Source: Halogeometricum sp. S3BR5-2 (lineage in GTDB: Archaea; Halobacteriota; Halobacteria; Halobacteriales; Haloferacaceae). From it: 64,000 nucleotides of DNA. Shown here piece after piece: positions 45,244 to 54,199 of this stretch (its first letter is position 1; the number at the start of each line of letters is the position of its first letter). The notes beneath the pieces are model-generated. The model did not search any database. It worked only from the letters and a program-made list of their open reading frames with translations, and had not been told where the DNA came from. The stretch spans positions 1 through 64,000 of the forward strand of contig NZ_JAMQOQ010000005.1 in assembly GCF_031624635.1 (NCBI RefSeq), read 5' to 3'. The position numbers were made by a program, and so were the translations under genes.

Positions 45244-45768
45244 TCAGAGATAGTCCGCCGACGCGCTCATCGTCTCTCCGAGCGCGTCGCGTTTCCGGAC
45301 GAGGGCGTCGCCGCCGAGCGGTCGCGCCGCGTCGCGTCGGGTCGCCTCGGCGAGTTCCGGCACCGGGTCGTGCGTCTCGACGTAGGCCGCGAGGGCGAAC
45401 TCCGCCTCGTCGGCGCCCGTGAGTTCGAGCGCGTCCGCGCGGGAGAGCGTCCCCGACAGCCAGTCGCGGAGGACCGTCCGCGCCGTCGGCGCGAGGGGGG
45501 TGACGCCCTCGACGCCGGCGCGGTGGAGCACCTTCGCGGCCGTCACGGGGGCGACGGCGGCCGCCCGCCCCGCGTCGCCGACGCTGTCGCCGCCGGCGTA
45601 CCGTTCGACGACCGTGGCCGCGGCCGCCGGCGCGCAGGGGAGCGCGTCGGCGTGGTCGCGCAGTCGGGCGTCGAGGTCGACGTCGGTATCGTCCACCGTC
45701 GCGACGCCCCGCGCGTCCTGCCTGCTCGTCGTCACCGCCGTCTCCGCCGCGATGTCCGCCAGTCCCAT
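45244..45768 (-). CDS. Haloarchaea-specific protein, unknown (174 aa)
   Basis: A helical, Ala-rich acidic protein without Cys or TM. It opens MGLADIAAETAVTTSRQDARGVATVDD. A central part (ATVVERYAGGDSVGDAGRAAAVAPVTAAKVLHRAGVEGV) resembles a helix-turn-helix, and a second helical part (VLRDWLSGTLSRADALELTGADEAEFALAAYVE) follows. It is divergent from tfb over about 160 nt and convergent with the P-loop-less ParA-like gene. I recall members of this family (DUF7858, not verified) in the same position in other haloarchaea. A DNA-binding role is possible. Confidence 0.7.
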   Translation of the reverse strand: MGLADIAAETAVTTSRQDARGVATVDDTDVDLDARLRDHADALPCAPAAAATVVERYAGGDSVGDAGRAAAVAPVTAAKVLHRAGVEGVTPLAPTARTVLRDWLSGTLSRADALELTGADEAEFALAAYVETHDPVPELAEATRRDAARPLGGDALVRKRDALGETMSASADYL

Positions 45769-45912: not shown

Positions 45913-45929
45913 ACCAAGAATCAATTGTG

Positions 45930-46820
45930 ATGACCGAAGCACGCGCCGACGACGCGACGACGACGAACGCCTGCCCCGAGTGCGACGGCCGACTCCACGC
46001 CGACGGTCGCGAGACGGTCTGCGGCGACTGCGGGCTGGTCGTCTCCGAGTACGCCATCGACCACGGGCCCGAGTGGCGGTCGTTCGCCGACGACGCCGGG
46101 AACCCCAAGCGGACGGGCGCGCCGCTCACCCGGTCGCGGCACGACCGCGGCCTCTCGACCGAAATCGGCCGCTCGACGCGCCTGAAGGGTCGCAAGCGTC
46201 GGCAGATGGCTCGTCTGCGCCGCCAGCACAACCGCGCTCGCATCTCCACGAAACGGGAGCGGAACCAGGTGTACGCGTTCACCGAGATACGCCGCCTCAC
46301 GAGCGCGCTGTCGCTCCCCGAGCGCATCCGCGACCACGCCTGCTCGCTGTTCCGGTCGGCGCAGACGGAGGACCTTCTGCGCGGGCGGTCGCTGGAGGGG
46401 TTCGCGGCCGCGTGCGTCTACGCCGCCTGCCGCGTCGCGAACGTCTCCCGCACCGTCGGCGAAGTCGTCGCGGAGGCGAAGGCGACGAGGGCCGAACAGA
46501 CGGCCGCGTACGACGCTCTGAACCGCGAACTCGGGCTTCCCGTGGGGTCGGTCGACCCCGCGGAGTACGTCCCCCGGTTCGCCACCCGCCTCGACCTCCC
46601 GCGCGAGGCGGAGCGCCGCGCCCACGAGTACGTCGCGGAGGCCGCCGAGGCGGGTATCTCGACGGGGCGGAACCCGGGCGGCGTCGCCGCGGGCTGTCTG
46701 TACACCGCCGCGCGCGACGTCGGCGCGGACGTGACGCAGGCGGAGGCGGCCGACGTCGCGGACGTGACGCCCGTCACCCTGCGGAAGACGTACGCGGCGC
46801 TCCGGGAGCGGGAGAGCTGA
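45930..46820 (+). CDS. tfb: Transcription initiation factor B (TFIIB homologue)
   Basis: 296 aa from ATG 45930 (a GTG lies one codon earlier). The N-terminal zinc ribbon CPEC...CGDC is followed by the B-reader/linker GPEWRSFADD and LSTEIGR, then two cyclin folds (about 105-200 and 205-295) that contact TBP and the BRE. It is one of the multiple TFBs haloarchaea carry. This one has DRGLSTEIGRSTRLKGRKRR instead of the more usual LSTxIG-D-NG, so it is a divergent paralogue. It recruits RNA polymerase to promoters. It has its own strong promoter. Confidence 0.93.
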   Translation: MTEARADDATTTNACPECDGRLHADGRETVCGDCGLVVSEYAIDHGPEWRSFADDAGNPKRTGAPLTRSRHDRGLSTEIGRSTRLKGRKRRQMARLRRQHNRARISTKRERNQVYAFTEIRRLTSALSLPERIRDHACSLFRSAQTEDLLRGRSLEGFAAACVYAACRVANVSRTVGEVVAEAKATRAEQTAAYDALNRELGLPVGSVDPAEYVPRFATRLDLPREAERRAHEYVAEAAEAGISTGRNPGGVAAGCLYTAARDVGADVTQAEAADVADVTPVTLRKTYAALRERES

Positions 46821-46899: not shown

Positions 46900-47565
46900 T
46901 CAGTCGCTCGAACAGCGGTCGACCGCCCGCGCGAGCGACAGAATCGCTCGCCCGGCGCGACTCGACGGGGCGACGCGGCAGACGGGGCGACCGGTCTCGA
47001 CGGCGCGGGCGACGCGGGGGTCCGCCGGAACCGTGACCGCGGGCGCGCCGAGCACCTCCTCGAAGACGGCCTCGGGCGGGTCGTCGACGGCGCGGTTGAC
47101 CGCGACGGCGACGAGTCCGGCGTCGAGTTCGCGCGCCAGTTCCCGCGTCCGGACGGCGTCGGCCAGCGCGTACGGCCGCGGTGACGCGACGACGACGCAG
47201 GCGTCGGCGACGGCGAGGGGAACGCCCGCGTCGGCTTTCATCCCCGCCGGACAGTCGACCACGACGTCGCCGTAGGTCCGTTCGACGGCGCGGAGCGCGT
47301 CGCCCAGTCGGCCCACGTCGGCCGCCCGCGCGCCCGCGAGCGACCGGCCGCACGGGAGCAGCGTCACCGGTCCGCCCTCGCGCACGGCCTCGACGGCCGA
47401 CGCCCGCCCCGCCAGCACGTCGTGCAGGTCCGGCCCGCGACCCGTCGGCAGGTCGGCCATGCCGACGTCCGCGTCGACGACGACGGCGTCCGTCGCGGCG
47501 CCGAGTTCGAAAGACAGCGTCGACTTGCCGACGCCGCCCTTCCCGCCGGTCACGGCGAGTATCAC
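46900..47565 (-). CDS. minD: MinD/ParA-family ATPase at the end of the mcm-linked cluster
   Basis: 221 aa from GTG 47565. It has the complete deviant Walker A KGGVGKST at residues 9-16, the switch DADVGMADL, and DVVVDCPAGMKADAGVPLAVAD (Walker B). It is short for MinD, and the C-terminal amphipathic membrane-targeting helix is not obvious (LSLARAVDRCSSD). The GTG overlaps the stop of the preceding gene (GTGA at 47562-47565), so the two are translationally coupled. Its place beside tfb matches my memory of Haloferax MinD1. MinD paralogues in archaea organise chemotaxis arrays and archaella poles; this one's role is open. Confidence 0.88.
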   Translation of the reverse strand: MILAVTGGKGGVGKSTLSFELGAATDAVVVDADVGMADLPTGRGPDLHDVLAGRASAVEAVREGGPVTLLPCGRSLAGARAADVGRLGDALRAVERTYGDVVVDCPAGMKADAGVPLAVADACVVVASPRPYALADAVRTRELARELDAGLVAVAVNRAVDDPPEAVFEEVLGAPAVTVPADPRVARAVETGRPVCRVAPSSRAGRAILSLARAVDRCSSD

Positions 47566-48311
47566 GGCGCCTCCAGCGCGGCGACGACCGGACCGGCCTC
47601 CGTCCCGGCGGCCCGGTCGGCGAGTTCCGCGGCGCGGGCCGCGACGGCCCGGAGCGCCGCCTCGTCGGCGTCGACCGCCGAGGGGAGTCCGGAGACGTCG
47701 CCCGCAGTTTCGAGCGTCGCCGCGGCGTCCGCCGCCGTGGCGTCCGTCAGTCGCTCCGCAAGGCGGACGCGCGTCTCGACCGCATCGAGCCACGAGGCGA
47801 CCGCGGGCGGTCGAGGCTTCGGACTCTGGCCGCCGGAGTCCGGTTCTGAGCCGTTCCCCTCGAAGACATCCGATCCATCGGGGTCGGAAGCGCCCTCGTC
47901 CGAGGGCGATTCGCGCGCGAGCGACGCGTCCGAAACCGAATCCGGAATCGGAACCGGAACGGCGTCGGCGGGCGGCCGCGCCCGACCCAGCGCGCGGATG
48001 GCCTCGTTCTCGCGGTTCTCCTCCTCCGCTCCCTCGGCCCGGCCGAGCGACGTCACGGAGACCGGAGGCTCGCCGTCGGAGGCGACGGGACAGGCGTAGC
48101 CGAGCGCTCGTGCCTCGCCGGCGGCGAGGACGCCCTCGAAGCCCTCCGCGTCCCATCCGCGTTCGGGGACGCCCTCGCGCCGCGGCGGGAGGACGGGGCC
48201 GGGGAGTTCGTTGCGGACGCGGACGCGCCGCGGGACGGGCGCGTCGTTGCGGACCCGGACCGTCACGAGCGTCGCGCCGGCGACGGCCTCGGTCGCGCAG
48301 TCGTGTTTCAT
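47562..48311 (-). CDS. Haloarchaea-specific protein upstream of minD (249 aa)
   Basis: The N-terminal half is beta-rich (LVTVRVRNDAPVPRRVRVRNELPGPVLPP, GVLAAGEARALGYACPV), like an immunoglobulin or CARDB-type domain. A long acidic low-complexity linker with PxP follows, then a helical C-terminus (VASWLDAVETRVRLAERL, ALRAVAARAAELADRA). Cys5 and Cys in GYACPV are the only cysteines. The stop overlaps the minD start, so stoichiometric partnership with MinD is likely. I recall it as DUF7857 (not verified). Start ATG 48311. Confidence 0.75.
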   Translation of the reverse strand: MKHDCATEAVAGATLVTVRVRNDAPVPRRVRVRNELPGPVLPPRREGVPERGWDAEGFEGVLAAGEARALGYACPVASDGEPPVSVTSLGRAEGAEEENRENEAIRALGRARPPADAVPVPIPDSVSDASLARESPSDEGASDPDGSDVFEGNGSEPDSGGQSPKPRPPAVASWLDAVETRVRLAERLTDATAADAAATLETAGDVSGLPSAVDADEAALRAVAARAAELADRAAGTEAGPVVAALEAP

Positions 48312-48363
48312 GGCCGGTCTGGCCGCGCACTGGTACTTCAACGTTCGACCGCACCGGCCGGCG

Positions 48364-49245
48364 TCAGCGGACCACGACCGGCGCCGAGAGGTAGCGGACG
48401 GCGCGAGCGAGGCCGCCGAAGCGGTCGACGACGGCCGAGTCGACGACGACGGGGGCGCGGAGGGGGGCCGCCCGAGCGACGGCGAGAGCGGCGGAGAGGG
48501 AGTCGGCGTCGAACGCGGGCGGGAGCGCCGCCACCGCGGCGGCGAACGCGTCGCGGACGGCGGCGGCGAGCGTCCGTCGCGCGTCGCGTTCGAGGTTCGC
48601 CGCCCGGTCTTCGAGTCGCATGCGCGCCTCGCGCGAGTCGCGGGCGCGGCGCGCCTCCGCCTCCAGGGCGTCGAGTCGCTGTCTGGCGGCCACGCGTTCG
48701 GTCGCCGCCTCCGAGAGTCGCCGCATCGTCTCCGAGAGGTCGCTCTCGGCGACCTCGACGGCGTCGCCGCCGACCTCCCGCGCGGCCTCAACCCGCCCGC
48801 GGACCGTCGCGGCGCGTTCGCGGAGGCGGTCGGTCTCCGCGCCCGCCTCCGCCGCCCGGCGGCGCGCGGCGGCGAGGTCGGTCGACTCCGCGGGCGCCGT
48901 CTCGGCTATCGCCTCCCGAACCCGTCTGAGTTCGGTCAGCGCTCCGCCGGCGTCGTGACCGCGGAGACGGGCCAGAGCGGCCAGCGCGCCCCGCCGGTCG
49001 AACGAGACTCCCACGGAGAGTCGCGCGACGAACGGGTGGACCGGCGTCGGCGCGGGGCGGACGACGCTGGGTGCGGCGGGTTCGGCCGGGAGACCGCCGG
49101 CGACTGCTCGGCGGAGCGTCGCGGCGCCGGGGGCCGTCTCGACCCCCCGGAGGTCGACGACCGGACCGACGTGGAGGCCCCCGTCGGGCAGGCGGACGCG
49201 TATCGGCCGGCGGGGGACCGCGGCCGCGACCGGACCGGCGGTCAC
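48364..49245 (-). CDS. Coiled-coil haloarchaeal protein of the mcm-minD cluster (293 aa)
   Basis: The N-terminal ~90 residues are a beta domain (RPIRVRLPDGGLHVGPVVDLRG). Residues about 95-225 form a long Ala/Arg/Glu-rich coiled coil (SETMRRLSEAATERVAARQRLDALEAEARRARDSREARMRLEDRAANLERDARRTL-like heptads). The C-terminus returns to strands (APVVVDSAVVDRFGG, VRYLSAPVVVR). Its ATG overlaps the previous gene's stop (49242-49245). The SMC-like rod without ATPase heads suggests a structural partner; family number DUF7856 from memory. Confidence 0.75.
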   Translation of the reverse strand: MTAGPVAAAVPRRPIRVRLPDGGLHVGPVVDLRGVETAPGAATLRRAVAGGLPAEPAAPSVVRPAPTPVHPFVARLSVGVSFDRRGALAALARLRGHDAGGALTELRRVREAIAETAPAESTDLAAARRRAAEAGAETDRLRERAATVRGRVEAAREVGGDAVEVAESDLSETMRRLSEAATERVAARQRLDALEAEARRARDSREARMRLEDRAANLERDARRTLAAAVRDAFAAAVAALPPAFDADSLSAALAVARAAPLRAPVVVDSAVVDRFGGLARAVRYLSAPVVVR

Positions 49246-49580
49246 AGGTCGGCGTCGCGCATCGCCGCCGAGGAGGGGTGGTCGGTGCCGGCGGCGAACT
49301 TGTCGTACGGGGTGCTCGGAGACTCACGAGCCTCGTAGGCCGCCGCGGCCGTCCGGACCGAGGCGGGCGCGTCGGCGAACTCGTTGAACGGTTCGGTGCG
49401 TTCGACCTGCACGTCGCCGGCGTGCTTCTCGCGGAGGCGGCACGCGAGGAAGGCGCCGAACTCCGTCTCCGCGAGGAGGGCCGCGCGGCCGAACCGCCGC
49501 ACGACGGTCTCCTCGTGCGTTCGACAGACGTTCCGGAGCGTCTCGCGGGCGGACCGCGAATAGGTCACGACGAGCAACAC
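49242..49580 (-). CDS. Small haloarchaeal protein of the mcm-minD cluster (112 aa)
   Basis: Starts at GTG 49580 (MLLVVTYSRSARETLRNVCRTHEETVVRRFGRAALLAETEF). The first half is helical with a basic face. The second half is acidic, with the conserved-looking tail PYDKFAAGTDHPSSAAMRDADL. One Cys. The stop/start overlap with the coiled-coil gene indicates coupled expression. Family DUF7855 from memory; no function known to me. Confidence 0.72.
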   Translation of the reverse strand: MLLVVTYSRSARETLRNVCRTHEETVVRRFGRAALLAETEFGAFLACRLREKHAGDVQVERTEPFNEFADAPASVRTAAAAYEARESPSTPYDKFAAGTDHPSSAAMRDADL

Positions 49581-49643
49581 GGTTACGGAAGAAAATTCAG
49601 TATGGGATAAAACTCTCCCGAATTGATTTGTTCGGCGACCCGG

Positions 49644-49928
49644 CTACAGGCGTTCGACGTCGAACGTCAGCGACCCGGGAGCCTCGTCCAGGAGGTCGTA
49701 CACGCGCGCTCGGGCGTCCTCGGCGCTCTCGGCGACGACGACGAGTCCGTTCGCGCGGTTCTCGCCCGCGGCCCGGTAGGGCGCGAGGCCCGCCTCGCCC
49801 TCGAAGTCGGTGGCGTACGTCCGGAGGACGGTCACGACGCGCCGTTCGGTCGCCGCGAGGTCGGACTCGCCGGACTCGAAGTCCCGGAGGGCCTCCTCAA
49901 CGTTTCGCAGGGCGGAGATTCTGTCCAT
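49644..49928 (-). CDS. Small haloarchaeal protein directly downstream of mcm (94 aa)
   Basis: An acidic alpha/beta protein (MDRISALRNVEEALRDFESGESDLAATERRVVTVLRTYATDF, then ANGLVVVAESAEDARARVYDLLDEAPGSLTFDVE). The end resembles a small ferredoxin-like beta-alpha-beta unit. It starts 70 nt after the mcm stop on the same strand and precedes the 112-aa gene by 63 nt, so it probably belongs to the mcm transcript. Family DUF7854 from memory. Unknown function. Confidence 0.72.
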   Translation of the reverse strand: MDRISALRNVEEALRDFESGESDLAATERRVVTVLRTYATDFEGEAGLAPYRAAGENRANGLVVVAESAEDARARVYDLLDEAPGSLTFDVERL

Positions 49929-49998
49929 CTACTTTGGGAGTCGTTCCGCGTCTCGGTACAAGAAGCCACCTCCTCGTCGGACTTCCATCGGGAGAGCG

Positions 49999-52900
49999 CT
50001 ACGTCGTCCGCAGGTGGTCCGTCCGCGGTTCGTACACCTCGCCCTTCCGGCGTAGGCTCTCTATCTCCTGTTCGGCCTTGCTCTCGCTGAGGTTCAACTC
50101 GGTTTCGGCGCGGGCGAGCACCTCGTCCACCGGCGCACCGCCCTCGTACTCGTCTTCGAGTTCGTTGATGAGCGCTTTCAGGTTCTTGATGCGGTCGCGC
50201 TGGTTCTTCGAGGTGCCGGTCTCCACGATATCGGCGTCGAACTCGCCCGTCTCGGGGTCCATCCCGATGTCGCGCAGGCAGGACTCGACGATGTTCGTGA
50301 CGCGGACGGCGTCCTCCTCGCTGACGGTGTCCGAGAGGCGGACGCGCGCCGACGCTTCCGCGAGGCGAACGAGCGCTTCGAGTTTCCGGGCGGTGACGGG
50401 GATGGGCGAGTCCTCGTCGGAGCCCTTCGCGCGGAAGTTGACGTAGAAGTCGCGGATGGTCTGCTTGGCCTCCTGCGTCATCGTCGGATAGCAGTTGCGC
50501 TTCGCGTAGGCGATGTACTTCCGCAGGAGTTCGGCGTCTATCTCCGGCGCCACCTCCTCTGTGACCGAGTTCACCTCGTCCTCGGTGAACTCGGAGTTGG
50601 CTATCTTCGTCCGCTGGGTGTGCAGTTCGCCCGCGTAGTTCGTGTTGATGATGTGGTCGGCGAGTTCGGCGTCGGTGTCCGGGTCCGGGGTGTCGGTCAC
50701 CGTGAAGATGAGGTCGAACCGCGAGATGAGCGCGGGTTCGAGGTCTATCTGCTCGCCGATGGGTTCGTACTGGTCGAATCTGCCGTATTTGGGGTTCGCA
50801 GCGCCGAGCAGCGAACACCGGGACTTGAGCGTGGCGTTGATGCCGGCTTTGGAGACCGAAATCTGCTGCTGTTCGAGACCCTCGTGCATCGCAGAGCGGT
50901 CCTCCGGGCGCATCTTGTCCAGTTCGTCCACGGCCGCGATGCCCTTGTCGGCGAGGACGAGGGCGCCGGCTTCGAGCGTCCACTGCTGTCCGTCGCCGAA
51001 GTCGTCGCGGACGGCGGCGGCGGTGAGACCCGCCGAGGAGGAACCCTTACCGGAGGTGTAGACGGAACGAGGGGCGATGTTCCGGATGTACTGGAGCATC
51101 TGGGAGTTGTGGGAGACGACGTTGTTCGTGAGGAAGTTGTGCGTTCCCTCGATTTCGAGGTCGTACACCCACTCGTCGTCACATTCGACCGATTCGATGG
51201 ACTCGATGCGGTCCCAGGCGACGTCGCCGTCCGCGAGTGCGCGAAGCGACGCGAGTTGGCGTTCGACGCTCTCACCGCCGTCGCCGTCGGCGCGGATTCC
51301 TCCGTCCGCGGCGTCGGAGAACGCCCGCACGACCGTCCGGAGGCTGTCTCGACTCGGATTTCTGTCGCCGCGTTCGTAATGCTGGTACGTACTGCGCGGG
51401 AGACCGCAGTCCCCCTGCGCGAGGTCGAGCGATTCGCGGATATCGCGGAGCGTCTCGTCGACGCCGGGGACGACGTCGCGGTTCGTGTTCCCGTCGGCGT
51501 TGACGGTTGCGGCGGCGGCCTCGATCTTCCGTTCAGTGACGAAACCGACCCGTTCGACGTAGCGAGCGAAATCGTCGCCGCTGATTCGGAGTCGGAAGCT
51601 GCCGCCGGCTTTCGGCCGGAGTTGCGAGTCGACGCTGAACGCGAGGAGGAGGCTCCGAATCCCTTCGAGGACGTCTCGGCTCGTCGAGGAGACTGTCGCC
51701 TCCCGTTGCGTCGGAGAAACGGTGCCTTCCGCGTCGACGAAGGCGCGGAGGAATCCTCGCTTGACGGGGCGCGTCGCGCGCAGAATCGCCTCGGGGACGC
51801 GCTGCTCGCTCGAACCCGCTAAGAACGCCGGCTCCAGTTCTTCGAGGAAGCTCACGAGTTCGGACGACGAGCAGATGAGCTCTCGAGCGCTCTTTCCGTC
51901 GTGCGGCGCCCGCTCGGTCGCGGAGAGACCGAGTCCGTCCAGCGCGTCGAGCGTGTCATCCAGTATCTCTCGGTCGTTGTTCGTCACGGAGACGAACCCG
52001 CTCCCCGAGTCGCGCCGTTCGACATACCCTTCGGCGGCGACGTACCCGAGCAGACGGGCGAGCGACGGCGTCAGTCGATCCGGGAGGTCCATTCGGACGG
52101 CATTGGACGAGCGCGAGCGTCGAATCGACACGTCGAGCGAGTCGTCGCCCTCGACCGGCAACGACCGGGGGACGGCGACGAAATCGCCCGTTTCGAGGTC
52201 GTCGGCGACGACGGCGTCGGTGCCGCCGTCCCGGCCGACGAACAGGGGATGCGACGGGGTGACCGTGAGTTCGCGTCCGCTGGCGGTCCGAACCTCGTAC
52301 ATTCGCTCGGGGGCCTCGCGCTTCCAGACCTTCGTCGCCCGCCGCGAGGATATCGAACCGTCAGGCGCCATCGACGGCACCGCGAAGTCGACGGAGTCCC
52401 ACACCCCGTCGTCGACCGGTTTCGGGTCGTCGAGGTTTCGCTCCACGAGTTCGCGGATGGGAACCTCCGACCCGTCGGCCAGCGTCACGCGCGTGTCCCC
52501 GGCGACGCACTTCCCCGTCCCGGGGTCCCCTATCAGCAACATGTGCAGGTCGCCGCGAATCCGCGACCCGTCGGGGAGGTGCTTGGTGACCCCCGAGAAC
52601 AGTTGGAGGATCATCGCGAGTTTCTCCTGCTCGTAGCCGTAGATGGAGGGCGCGACGGAGCCGACCATCTTCTCGTAGATGTCCTCCTCGTTGGAGAGTT
52701 CGATAATCTCCGCGACGTCCTCCTCGGAGATGTCCATGTCCTCGAACTCCTCGTCCTCTATCTCGATGGCGACGCCGTCCATGTAGAGGTCGAAGATGGG
52801 CGTCTTCTCCTGCCCGGAGGTCTGCTGTTCGATGTGGAGGACGCCCGTGACGGTGACGTGGTCACCGGCGGTCACTCTCCCCGTGATGTCGTCTTCGGTG

Positions 52901-53517
52901 TCGATGTCGATGCTCTGCGGCGTCTCGCCGCCCCGCAGGCCCTCGGGGCTCTCCTGGACGCGCAGTTTCTGGGAGTCGACGAACTCCGATTGGTCGAAGT
53001 CGACGTGGAACGGTCCCTGTCGCTCGCAGCCCTGACACTCGTGGGGTTCCTGAAAGCCGCTGTCGGTCTGCGGGATGTACGTCATCGTCCCGCAGCGCTG
53101 ACACTCGAAGGCGGCCTCCGTTATCTTGGGCCGGACGTCGGTCGCCTTGCGGACGATTCCCTGGACGGAGACCATCCGTCCGATGTGGTCGTCGTGGACG
53201 CGGATGTTCCTGATGTCGACCGAATCCGGGAGGTTGTGGAGGCGGACGTGCGCGCGCCCGAGTTTCACGTCGACCGGAAGGTCGTAGAGGCGGAGGGCCT
53301 CCTCGGCGTACTCGCGTATCTGGTCGGGTTTCTTGCGGTAGTCCTCCGCGAGGTCCTCGTCGAAGCGGAACAGGTCGTCGTAGTCGACGTACAACGAGCG
53401 CTGCTCGTTCGGATACCGCTGGGCGAGGCGGCCGATATCGTCGCTGTAGTACTTTCTGTAGAACTGGACGAACCGGTCGGTGAGGTCCACGTCCGGGTCC
53501 TGCGGGGCCTGTGCCAT
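49999..53517 (-). CDS. mcm: Replicative helicase MCM with intein
   Basis: 1172 codons; about 704 aa after intein removal, the normal archaeal size. The N-terminal domain carries the zinc site CQRC...CQGC (139-164) and OB fold with beta-hairpin. The AAA+ domain has Walker A GDPGTGKS, split by the intein after Lys336. Further on are Walker B AAVDELDKM, sensor 1 GAANPKYGRF and the Arg-finger SRFDLIF. A winged helix closes the protein (NELEDEYEGGAPVDEVLARAE). It forms the hexameric 3'-5' replicative helicase. It heads a same-strand run of four small unknown genes and minD. Confidence 0.97.
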   Translation of the reverse strand: MAQAPQDPDVDLTDRFVQFYRKYYSDDIGRLAQRYPNEQRSLYVDYDDLFRFDEDLAEDYRKKPDQIREYAEEALRLYDLPVDVKLGRAHVRLHNLPDSVDIRNIRVHDDHIGRMVSVQGIVRKATDVRPKITEAAFECQRCGTMTYIPQTDSGFQEPHECQGCERQGPFHVDFDQSEFVDSQKLRVQESPEGLRGGETPQSIDIDTEDDITGRVTAGDHVTVTGVLHIEQQTSGQEKTPIFDLYMDGVAIEIEDEEFEDMDISEEDVAEIIELSNEEDIYEKMVGSVAPSIYGYEQEKLAMILQLFSGVTKHLPDGSRIRGDLHMLLIGDPGTGKCVAGDTRVTLADGSEVPIRELVERNLDDPKPVDDGVWDSVDFAVPSMAPDGSISSRRATKVWKREAPERMYEVRTASGRELTVTPSHPLFVGRDGGTDAVVADDLETGDFVAVPRSLPVEGDDSLDVSIRRSRSSNAVRMDLPDRLTPSLARLLGYVAAEGYVERRDSGSGFVSVTNNDREILDDTLDALDGLGLSATERAPHDGKSARELICSSSELVSFLEELEPAFLAGSSEQRVPEAILRATRPVKRGFLRAFVDAEGTVSPTQREATVSSTSRDVLEGIRSLLLAFSVDSQLRPKAGGSFRLRISGDDFARYVERVGFVTERKIEAAAATVNADGNTNRDVVPGVDETLRDIRESLDLAQGDCGLPRSTYQHYERGDRNPSRDSLRTVVRAFSDAADGGIRADGDGGESVERQLASLRALADGDVAWDRIESIESVECDDEWVYDLEIEGTHNFLTNNVVSHNSQMLQYIRNIAPRSVYTSGKGSSSAGLTAAAVRDDFGDGQQWTLEAGALVLADKGIAAVDELDKMRPEDRSAMHEGLEQQQISVSKAGINATLKSRCSLLGAANPKYGRFDQYEPIGEQIDLEPALISRFDLIFTVTDTPDPDTDAELADHIINTNYAGELHTQRTKIANSEFTEDEVNSVTEEVAPEIDAELLRKYIAYAKRNCYPTMTQEAKQTIRDFYVNFRAKGSDEDSPIPVTARKLEALVRLAEASARVRLSDTVSEEDAVRVTNIVESCLRDIGMDPETGEFDADIVETGTSKNQRDRIKNLKALINELEDEYEGGAPVDEVLARAETELNLSESKAEQEIESLRRKGEVYEPRTDHLRTT
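51106..52509 (-). other. Intein in MCM Walker A motif (468 aa, residues 337-804)
   Basis: Begins Cys337 (CVAGDTRV, block A) directly after GDPGTGK and ends VVSHN (block G) before Ser of SQML. Block B is TVTPSHPLF. The dodecapeptide homing-endonuclease motifs are LLGYVAAEG (intein 153-161) and FLRAFVDAEG (253-262), both with Glu or Asp at the catalytic position. A helix-turn-helix of XRE type (about 350-398, GDCGLPRSTYQHYERGDRNPS-like) is inserted before block F (VYDLEIEGTHNF). All splicing residues are present, so it should be active. MCM cannot bind ATP until splicing restores GKS. Confidence 0.92.
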
Positions 53518-53587
53518 CGAACCGGAGTAAGTCCCCCATCCGGTAAGAGTCTTCGTTCGGAGCGGAAGTGATGGGGGAGCGGAGGGG

Positions 53588-54199
53588 CTACAGCGAGACG
53601 TCCGTCTCGATGTCCTCGGTGGCCTCGCGCAGGCCGTCGCGGCGGGCGTCCTCGGCGAGTCGCGCCGAGAGGTCCGAGTCGGTCAGCAGTTCCTCGAACT
53701 CGGTCCGGAAGCGGTCGTTCGCGCGCGTCGCCTCTCGTCGCGCCTCGACGACGCGGCGGACGCGAGCGACCGTCCCGGCGTCGGCGTCGAGTGCGGCCGC
53801 GCACGCCTCGTCGTCCGCGCCGTCCGCGAGGAGTGACCGGAACTCGTCGAGCGAGAAGGGGGCGTCGGCGTCCGACTCCCGCAGGAGGTGGAGGTCCGTC
53901 CGCGCGACGAACACCTCCCCCTCGTCGGCGTTCACCTCTAAGACCGACGCGAGTTCCGCGTCGGTGTCGCCGTCGAAGAACCCGCGGACGATTCGGCGCA
54001 GGTCCGCGTCCGAGAGGTCCGTCTCGAACTCGTAGCGCTCCCGCATCGCCGCGACGAGGTCACCTACTCGGCGGTTTCGCTCCTCGTCGTCGGGGGCGTC
54101 CGTCAACGACCCGGGCGACTCCTCCTGTCTCTCCGTCACCGACTCCGACCCGGTCGTCTCGACGAAGATGTCCCTGAGTTCGGCCGTCTTCTCGTCCAT
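53588..54199 (-). CDS. Conserved haloarchaeal protein upstream of mcm (cmi4-like)
   Basis: 203 aa from ATG 54199. It begins MDEKTAELRDIFVETTGSESVTERQEESPGSL, which I recognise from the haloarchaeal 'conditioned medium-induced protein 4' family commonly found beside mcm. It is helical and highly acidic, with two HTH-like stretches (LRRIVRGFFDGDTDAELASVLEV and EFRSLLADGADDEACAAALDADAGTVARVRRVV), suggesting duplicated DNA-binding modules. It shares the mcm strand with a 70-nt gap, so co-transcription is likely. The actual function is unknown; the name reflects expression, not mechanism. Confidence 0.75.
   Translation of the reverse strand: MDEKTAELRDIFVETTGSESVTERQEESPGSLTDAPDDEERNRRVGDLVAAMRERYEFETDLSDADLRRIVRGFFDGDTDAELASVLEVNADEGEVFVARTDLHLLRESDADAPFSLDEFRSLLADGADDEACAAALDADAGTVARVRRVVEARREATRANDRFRTEFEELLTDSDLSARLAEDARRDGLREATEDIETDVSL

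Follow-up and report, generated by a model that had tools for sequence, protein, structure and literature searches.

A MinD-type ATPase and DUF7857, its probable dedicated partner, in the mcm gene neighborhood of haloarchaea

Haloarchaea carry several MinD paralogues, and we know of no MinE-like partner identified for them. In Haloferax volcanii, MinD2 and MinD4 act on motility and pole organization (PMC11588486; PMC11621097), while HVO_0225 is the named MinD1 and its function is undescribed (PMC11588486, PMC11621097). ParA/MinD partners have been reported to have a basic, disordered N terminus (PMC10241942). Here we describe a MinD-type ATPase gene and its neighbors in a 64,000-nucleotide (nt) stretch (the window) of contig NZ_JAMQOQ010000005.1 from Halogeometricum sp. 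S3BR5-2, the minus strand of which carries, in this order, genes for a cmi4-like protein, the replicative helicase MCM with an intein, members of families DUF7854, DUF7855, DUF7856, and DUF7857, and the ATPase (Table 1). An earlier reading of the DNA (the original prediction) had placed all of these open reading frames correctly and had taken the run for an undescribed positioning machine tied to the helicase. What stands of that proposal is a MinD switch ATPase with a dedicated partner made of an immunoglobulin (Ig)-like domain and helices; the tie of the whole run to the helicase does not. Judging by the gene order in Haloferax loci and by the published name, the ATPase is likely the orthologue of HVO_0225, and we call it MinD1; we take mcm to be HVO_0220 and DUF7857 to be HVO_0224. 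A literature search found no paper naming HVO_0219, HVO_0221 to HVO_0224, or DUF7854 to DUF7857.

We propose that the core of the locus is a two-gene module, which probably, if by no means certainly, consists of the ParA/MinD-type ATPase MinD1 and DUF7857 as its dedicated partner. Computation showed that these two genes keep a fixed pairing with an overlap and a TATA box of their own, that they are gained, lost, and relocated together, that their divergence is correlated, and that the ATPase motifs are intact, and it predicted the domain architecture. One set of 145 Halobacteria genomes was used to locate every gene, and the coordinates were then compared. Both DUF7857 and MinD1 were present in 101 genomes and neither in 39, with DUF7857 alone in 4 and MinD1 alone in 1 (Fisher 1.4e-29, phylogeny ignored). 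The two genes were neighbors on one strand in all 101 genomes having both, and their 4-nt stop/start overlap was found at 126 of 130 loci (62 of 63 named loci), so that the arrangement expected of ParA/MinD-partner systems, a dedicated partner gene beside the ATPase, is present. In H. volcanii, 45.2% of gene pairs with a spacing of −8 to +10 nt encode heteromeric complexes, compared with 5.6% of distant pairs (PMC10666635). Because the genome counts are not phylogenetically independent, Fisher values make significance look greater than it is; stronger evidence than such counts comes from the adjacency that persists after relocation and from the partial correlation given below.

Expression units were counted in 80 named loci found by a pattern scan with DUF7855, which was used in place of DUF7857 because the DUF7857 alignment was too divergent for such a scan; later locus counts used stop-to-stop open reading frames with profile matches, and start codons in the loci were picked by rule. 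The DUF7855/DUF7856 genes likewise overlap by 4 nt, in 58 of 70 named loci, and both overlaps, which the original prediction had pointed out, are real and conserved far above chance. A TATA-like element lies ~25 to 35 nt upstream of DUF7855 in 30 of 43 relatives and of DUF7857 in 59 of 78, against 2.5% of random 30-mers by chance, and relatives have a TTTAAATA/TTTATA box before DUF7857, of which the window's own is a degenerate form. A TATA-like motif was found upstream of DUF7856 in 2 of 74 and of minD1 in 0 of 64 named loci, and upstream of DUF7854 in 6 of 72 loci, i.e., DUF7854 has no TATA box. Since DUF7855 and DUF7857 have TATA boxes of their own, the small genes are probably expressed separately, an outcome that the original prediction had itself named as one that would refute it. 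The upstream sequences indicate that minD1 is probably expressed from the promoter in front of DUF7857 and not from that of mcm.

The pair also behaves as a unit in evolution. With mcm divergence held constant, distances for the DUF7857 N-domain and MinD1 gave a partial rank correlation of 0.52, and all other gene pairs in the block gave 0.19 to 0.31. In the MinD1 tree, a clade with 100/99 support unites Natrialbaceae-like copies with those of some further lineages and with the second copies of two genomes (G058 and G141), which retain the mcm-linked copy as well. (We take the labels "Natrialbaceae-like" and, below, "Natronomonas-type" from named loci and general knowledge.) The simplest explanation of this clade is that the whole pair was transferred; DUF7857-minD1 moves, is lost, or doubles as one unit. 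The DUF7857 proteins of the clade are ~120 amino acids (aa) long and consist of the N-domain only, and the sandwich therefore suffices for the association. A search for plasmid carriage gave no match for DUF7857 and one distant P-loop match for MinD1.

MinD1 scores above the Pfam cutoffs for CbiA and AAA_31. Its best NCBIfam match, minD_arch (TIGR01969; 131.2 bits, 3.6e-38), falls below the curated 201.75 bits, and its minD_bact score is also under the curated cutoff; MinD1 is filed as MinD-like and divergent, short of the archaeal MinD subfamily cutoff. The nearest solved structure is Archaeoglobus fulgidus MinD (1hyq, 5e-26). MinD1 has the deviant Walker A motif KGGxGK[ST] with its signature lysine and the D-x-P-A-G switch, and Walker A residues G8, K9, G10, G11, V12, G13, and K14 as well as D104-x-P106-A-G are at least 95% conserved in 64 orthologues. 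Archaeal and bacterial MinD proteins have a conserved amphipathic helix at the C terminus that targets them to membranes; the C termini of the MinD1 orthologues vary, and a conserved extra helix was not seen at the sequence level. For DUF7857, an AlphaFold2 model (mean predicted local distance difference test [pLDDT] score, 85.8; both folded domains, ~95) confidently bears out the predicted combination of an Ig-like domain and helices, with an Ig-like sandwich at residues 2 to 91, a disordered linker at ~120 to 165, and a helical bundle at 169 to 247. The sandwich weakly resembles ligand- or carbohydrate-binding modules; a structural search of the PDB returned generic sandwich matches alone (E ≥ 0.02), and a PDB profile search gave chance matches for DUF7857 and nothing for DUF7855.

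How might such a module work? In ParA/MinD-partner positioning systems, the partner stimulates the ATPase, which patterns a surface and places a cargo. As a deviant-Walker-A ATPase, MinD1 would be expected to dimerize on ATP and to bind a cellular surface, and DUF7857 and MinD1 would be made in matched amounts through termination-reinitiation at the 4-nt overlap. We infer that the two proteins bind each other physically, that the Ig-like N-domain of DUF7857 recognizes MinD1 and controls its ATPase cycle, and that the pair serves positioning. In proteins that have it, the tethered helical bundle would link DUF7857 to a cargo or to itself, as in McdA-McdB and ParA-ParB. Because the N-domain alone suffices in one clade, the data suggest that this domain is the MinD-facing part and that the bundle is the cargo or oligomerization part.

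Several observations weigh against this scheme. An H. volcanii mutant lacking all four minD genes is unaffected in growth and division (PMC11588486; PMC11621097), and its motility defect is that of the minD2/minD4 double mutant (PMC11621097); therefore, no phenotype attaches to MinD1. Residues 2 to 10 of DUF7857 are modeled as a confident beta strand in the place where a basic, disordered N terminus would be expected, so that, if the model holds, either the basic-N-terminus rule fails to extend here or DUF7857 is no activator of that type. The pair is absent from 39 of the 145 genomes. Finally, Natronomonas-type genomes have no MinD1 but retain DUF7857 with its conserved PPR..GWD loop, and DUF7857 must therefore have a second role or partner.

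Among the alternatives, an unlikely one that still deserves attention is that MinD1 is not a positioning ATPase but a P-loop switch for signaling or assembly, either ApbC/NifH/Get3-like or coupled to KaiC-like ATPases, with DUF7857 as its client or sensor. A MinD-DUF7125 (KaiC-like) fusion gene lies near the pair in 15 of 19 loci of the mobile 100/99 clade (directly convergent in 11) and in 0 of 138 other loci, and a RecA/KaiC-like DUF7504 gene lies between DUF7854 and DUF7855 in the one example identified, an insert of that size being present in 28 of 71 named loci. The weak likeness of the DUF7857 sandwich to ligand- or carbohydrate-binding modules would fit as well. Among solved structures, however, MinD1 comes closest to archaeal MinD and to site-determining proteins of the FlhG type and not to NifH or ApbC.

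We give a low probability to the idea of a single positioning or segregation machine in which MinD, the Ig-helix protein, and the coiled coil would be coupled to the replicative helicase and might, for instance, determine where replication forks or sister chromosomes lie. The synteny that had been suggested as a check is partly there, with mcm within 12 kb of minD1 on one strand in 75 of 102 genomes and within 12 kb of DUF7855 on one strand in 88 of 93; two Natrialbaceae-like genomes (G057 and G087) keep mcm beside DUF7857-minD1 though DUF7854 to DUF7856 are gone, and a natural in-frame DUF7856-DUF7857 fusion in a Natronomonas-type genome (locus L063) hints at some contact between units. However, mcm is present in 145 of 145 genomes, while minD1 lies farther than ~12 to 14 kb from it in 25 of 102 and the pair is absent from 39 to 43; the conserved TATA boxes are separate, and correlated divergence is strongest solely for DUF7857-MinD1. 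In 88 of 89 genomes, DUF7855 has DUF7856 as its direct neighbor. DUF7854 lies downstream of mcm, within 12 kb, in 88 of 89 genomes and starts no more than 10 nt from the mcm stop codon in 51 of 70 named loci (median spacing, 1 nt).

This gene arrangement argues for three units, [mcm-DUF7854], [DUF7855-DUF7856], and [DUF7857-minD1], in place of one system, and the block splits accordingly in the synteny comparison. A single operon with mcm was rejected on spacing, the internal TATA boxes, and the relocation of DUF7857-minD1; co-expression with mcm together with constant linkage to it fits DUF7854 as the only one of the small genes. The first two units are neighbors, probably with functions of their own. 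DUF7857-minD1 just happens to adjoin the helicase gene in many species and is not clearly part of a replication machine; what ties MinD1 to the helicase is synteny, and a functional tie is not supported. The cmi4-like gene, which the original prediction had included in the cluster, was rejected as a bystander: it is present in 142 of 145 genomes yet shares a strand with mcm at a distance of up to 12 kb in only 16 of 140, mostly in the window's own family.

It is similarly doubtful that MinD1-DUF7857 is a cell-pole or motility positioning factor of the kind that MinD2 and MinD4 are in H. volcanii. MinD2 likewise has a conserved neighboring partner, HVO_0596 (PMC11588486), but the quadruple minD mutant swims as the minD2/4 mutant does (PMC11621097), and 16 of the 28 genomes in which no archaellin-family match was seen still encode MinD1, the family used being PF01917, which covers archaellins and may miss divergent ones. 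The presence test for an archaellum link was not significant (Fisher p = 0.11), and archaella positioning, which the original prediction had listed among the deletion phenotypes to check, was rejected as a general explanation. That the linkage is merely inherited gene order is very improbable, for although most mcm-linked genomes seem, from their family composition, to be related and their counts nonindependent, DUF7857 and MinD1 have stayed together, overlap included, through relocation, loss, and transfer.

Beyond the two-gene module itself, a speculative extension, to which we attach little weight, is that DUF7857 is the first of a new class of ParA/MinD partners that are folded (Ig-like), that separate haloarchaeal pairs (MinD1-DUF7857, MinD2-HVO_0596, and MinD3-DUF7125/KaiC-like) serve different cargoes, and that, in polyploid cells, the MinD1 pair acts via DUF7856/DUF7855 to position structures of replication or of the nucleoid.

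Table 1. Features of the mcm-minD1 region, in window coordinates
Feature	Position	Strand	Details
cmi4-like protein	53588..54199	-	203 aa; judged outside the system
mcm replicative helicase	49999..53517	-	1172 aa; LAGLIDADG intein at ~residues 339-805; MCM 1.5e-84, Intein_splicing 2e-25, LAGLIDADG_3 1.5e-28
DUF7854	49644..49928	-	94 aa; PF25252 1e-37
TATA-box-like element TTTTATC	49606..49612	-	32-26 nt upstream of DUF7855 start
DUF7855, ferredoxin-like alpha/beta fold	49242..49580	-	112 aa; PF25253 3e-59
4-nt stop/start overlap, DUF7855/DUF7856	49242-49245	-	sequence feature
DUF7856, probable coiled coil	48364..49245	-	293 aa; PF25254 9e-72; second gene of the DUF7855-DUF7856 unit
TATA-box-like element TTGAAGTA	48334..48341	-	30-23 nt upstream of DUF7857 start
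DUF7857, Ig-like beta-sandwich, linker, and helical bundle	47562..48311	-	249 aa; PF25256 1e-36
4-nt stop/start overlap GTGA, DUF7857/minD1	47562..47565	-	sequence feature; expected to couple translation
minD1, ParA/MinD-type P-loop ATPase	46900..47565	-	221 aa; GTG start overlapping the DUF7857 stop

The other small proteins deserve brief description. DUF7855 and DUF7857 were found above cutoffs only within the taxonomic order of the window in phylum-wide samples, in keeping with their having been called haloarchaea specific. The window DUF7855 is 94 to 95% identical to that of Halogeometricum pallidum, and its ferredoxin-like fold is modeled by AlphaFold2 at a pLDDT of 95. A catalytic Asp at the end of strand 1 is a defining feature of VapD/Cas2 nucleases; strand 1 of DUF7855 ends in T-Y-S, the best fold match has an E value of 0.03 and a template modeling score (TM-score) of <0.5, and a nuclease of this type was rejected. 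The coiled coil predicted for DUF7856 has indirect support, from an 81-residue stretch without Gly or Pro and a subthreshold match to an SMC-related protein. Relative to called genes in the loci, the median net-charge percentiles of DUF7855 (88th), DUF7856 (82nd), and MinD1 (80th) are those of proteins markedly less acidic than is typical of haloarchaea, which might suit contact with nucleic acid.

Around these genes, the LAGLIDADG intein of mcm (window 51100-52500) sits at the Walker A site and has an internal helix-turn-helix-like stretch, and relatives vary in mcm length, consistent with differing intein content. The ~200-aa gene between DUF7854 and DUF7855, absent from the window's species, occurs in many genomes (L094:2616-3215, L071:3789-4394, L107:2968-3558). 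In one genome (G086; L112:4389-11510), a gene for a giant, secreted-looking protein of ~2370 aa separates mcm-DUF7854 from DUF7855, and a fragment duplicated from DUF7855 lies 5′ of this gene. After minD1 come DUF7858 and TFB genes (window 45244-45768 and 45927-46820), an arrangement kept in many loci with TFB convergent.

The genome of the window also encodes a MinD4-like protein whose long acidic tail terminates in KGIFGRFLG, by its looks a membrane-targeting helix (L060:4483-5853); a MinD2-like gene with a gene for 185 aa beginning 8 nt after it, as has been published for MinD2-HVO_0596 (L061:4713-6049); and a MinD3-like gene directly before a KaiC-like DUF7125 gene (L062:4616-5956). The MinD3-like protein may thus have a KaiC-like partner, the MinD domain and DUF7125 being fused in Natrialbaceae-type genomes.

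With DUF7857 as the proposed partner of MinD1, an orphan ATPase becomes a testable pair in H. volcanii, in which gene deletion and fluorescent tagging are routine. Separating the pair from the helicase gene averts a false "replication-coupled" annotation and leaves DUF7854 as the small protein that may truly belong with MCM. The nearest known counterpart is H. volcanii MinD1 (HVO_0225) itself, with the same mcm-DUF7854-7855-7856-7857-minD1 order in Haloferax loci. MinD2-HVO_0596 is similar in that a MinD paralogue has a conserved downstream partner gene in haloarchaea (PMC11588486) and differs in the partner, since the gene below the MinD2-like copy in the window's genome has no DUF7857 match; moreover, MinD2 alters shape and motility, whereas MinD1 has no known effect. 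With bacterial MinCDE, MinD1 shares the MinD fold and ATPase motifs, and in profile scans none of the clustered proteins matched MinC or MinE. The partners in McdA-McdB, ParA-ParB, and PomZ-PomX engage via a basic, disordered N terminus, whereas DUF7857 begins with a folded Ig-like domain and, in a profile scan, matches none of the McdB/ParB/PomX-type partner families. In these systems, as in the pair described here, a deviant-Walker-A ATPase is encoded beside one dedicated partner, and that partner, like DUF7857, combines a part for recognition with a disordered stretch and a part made of helices.

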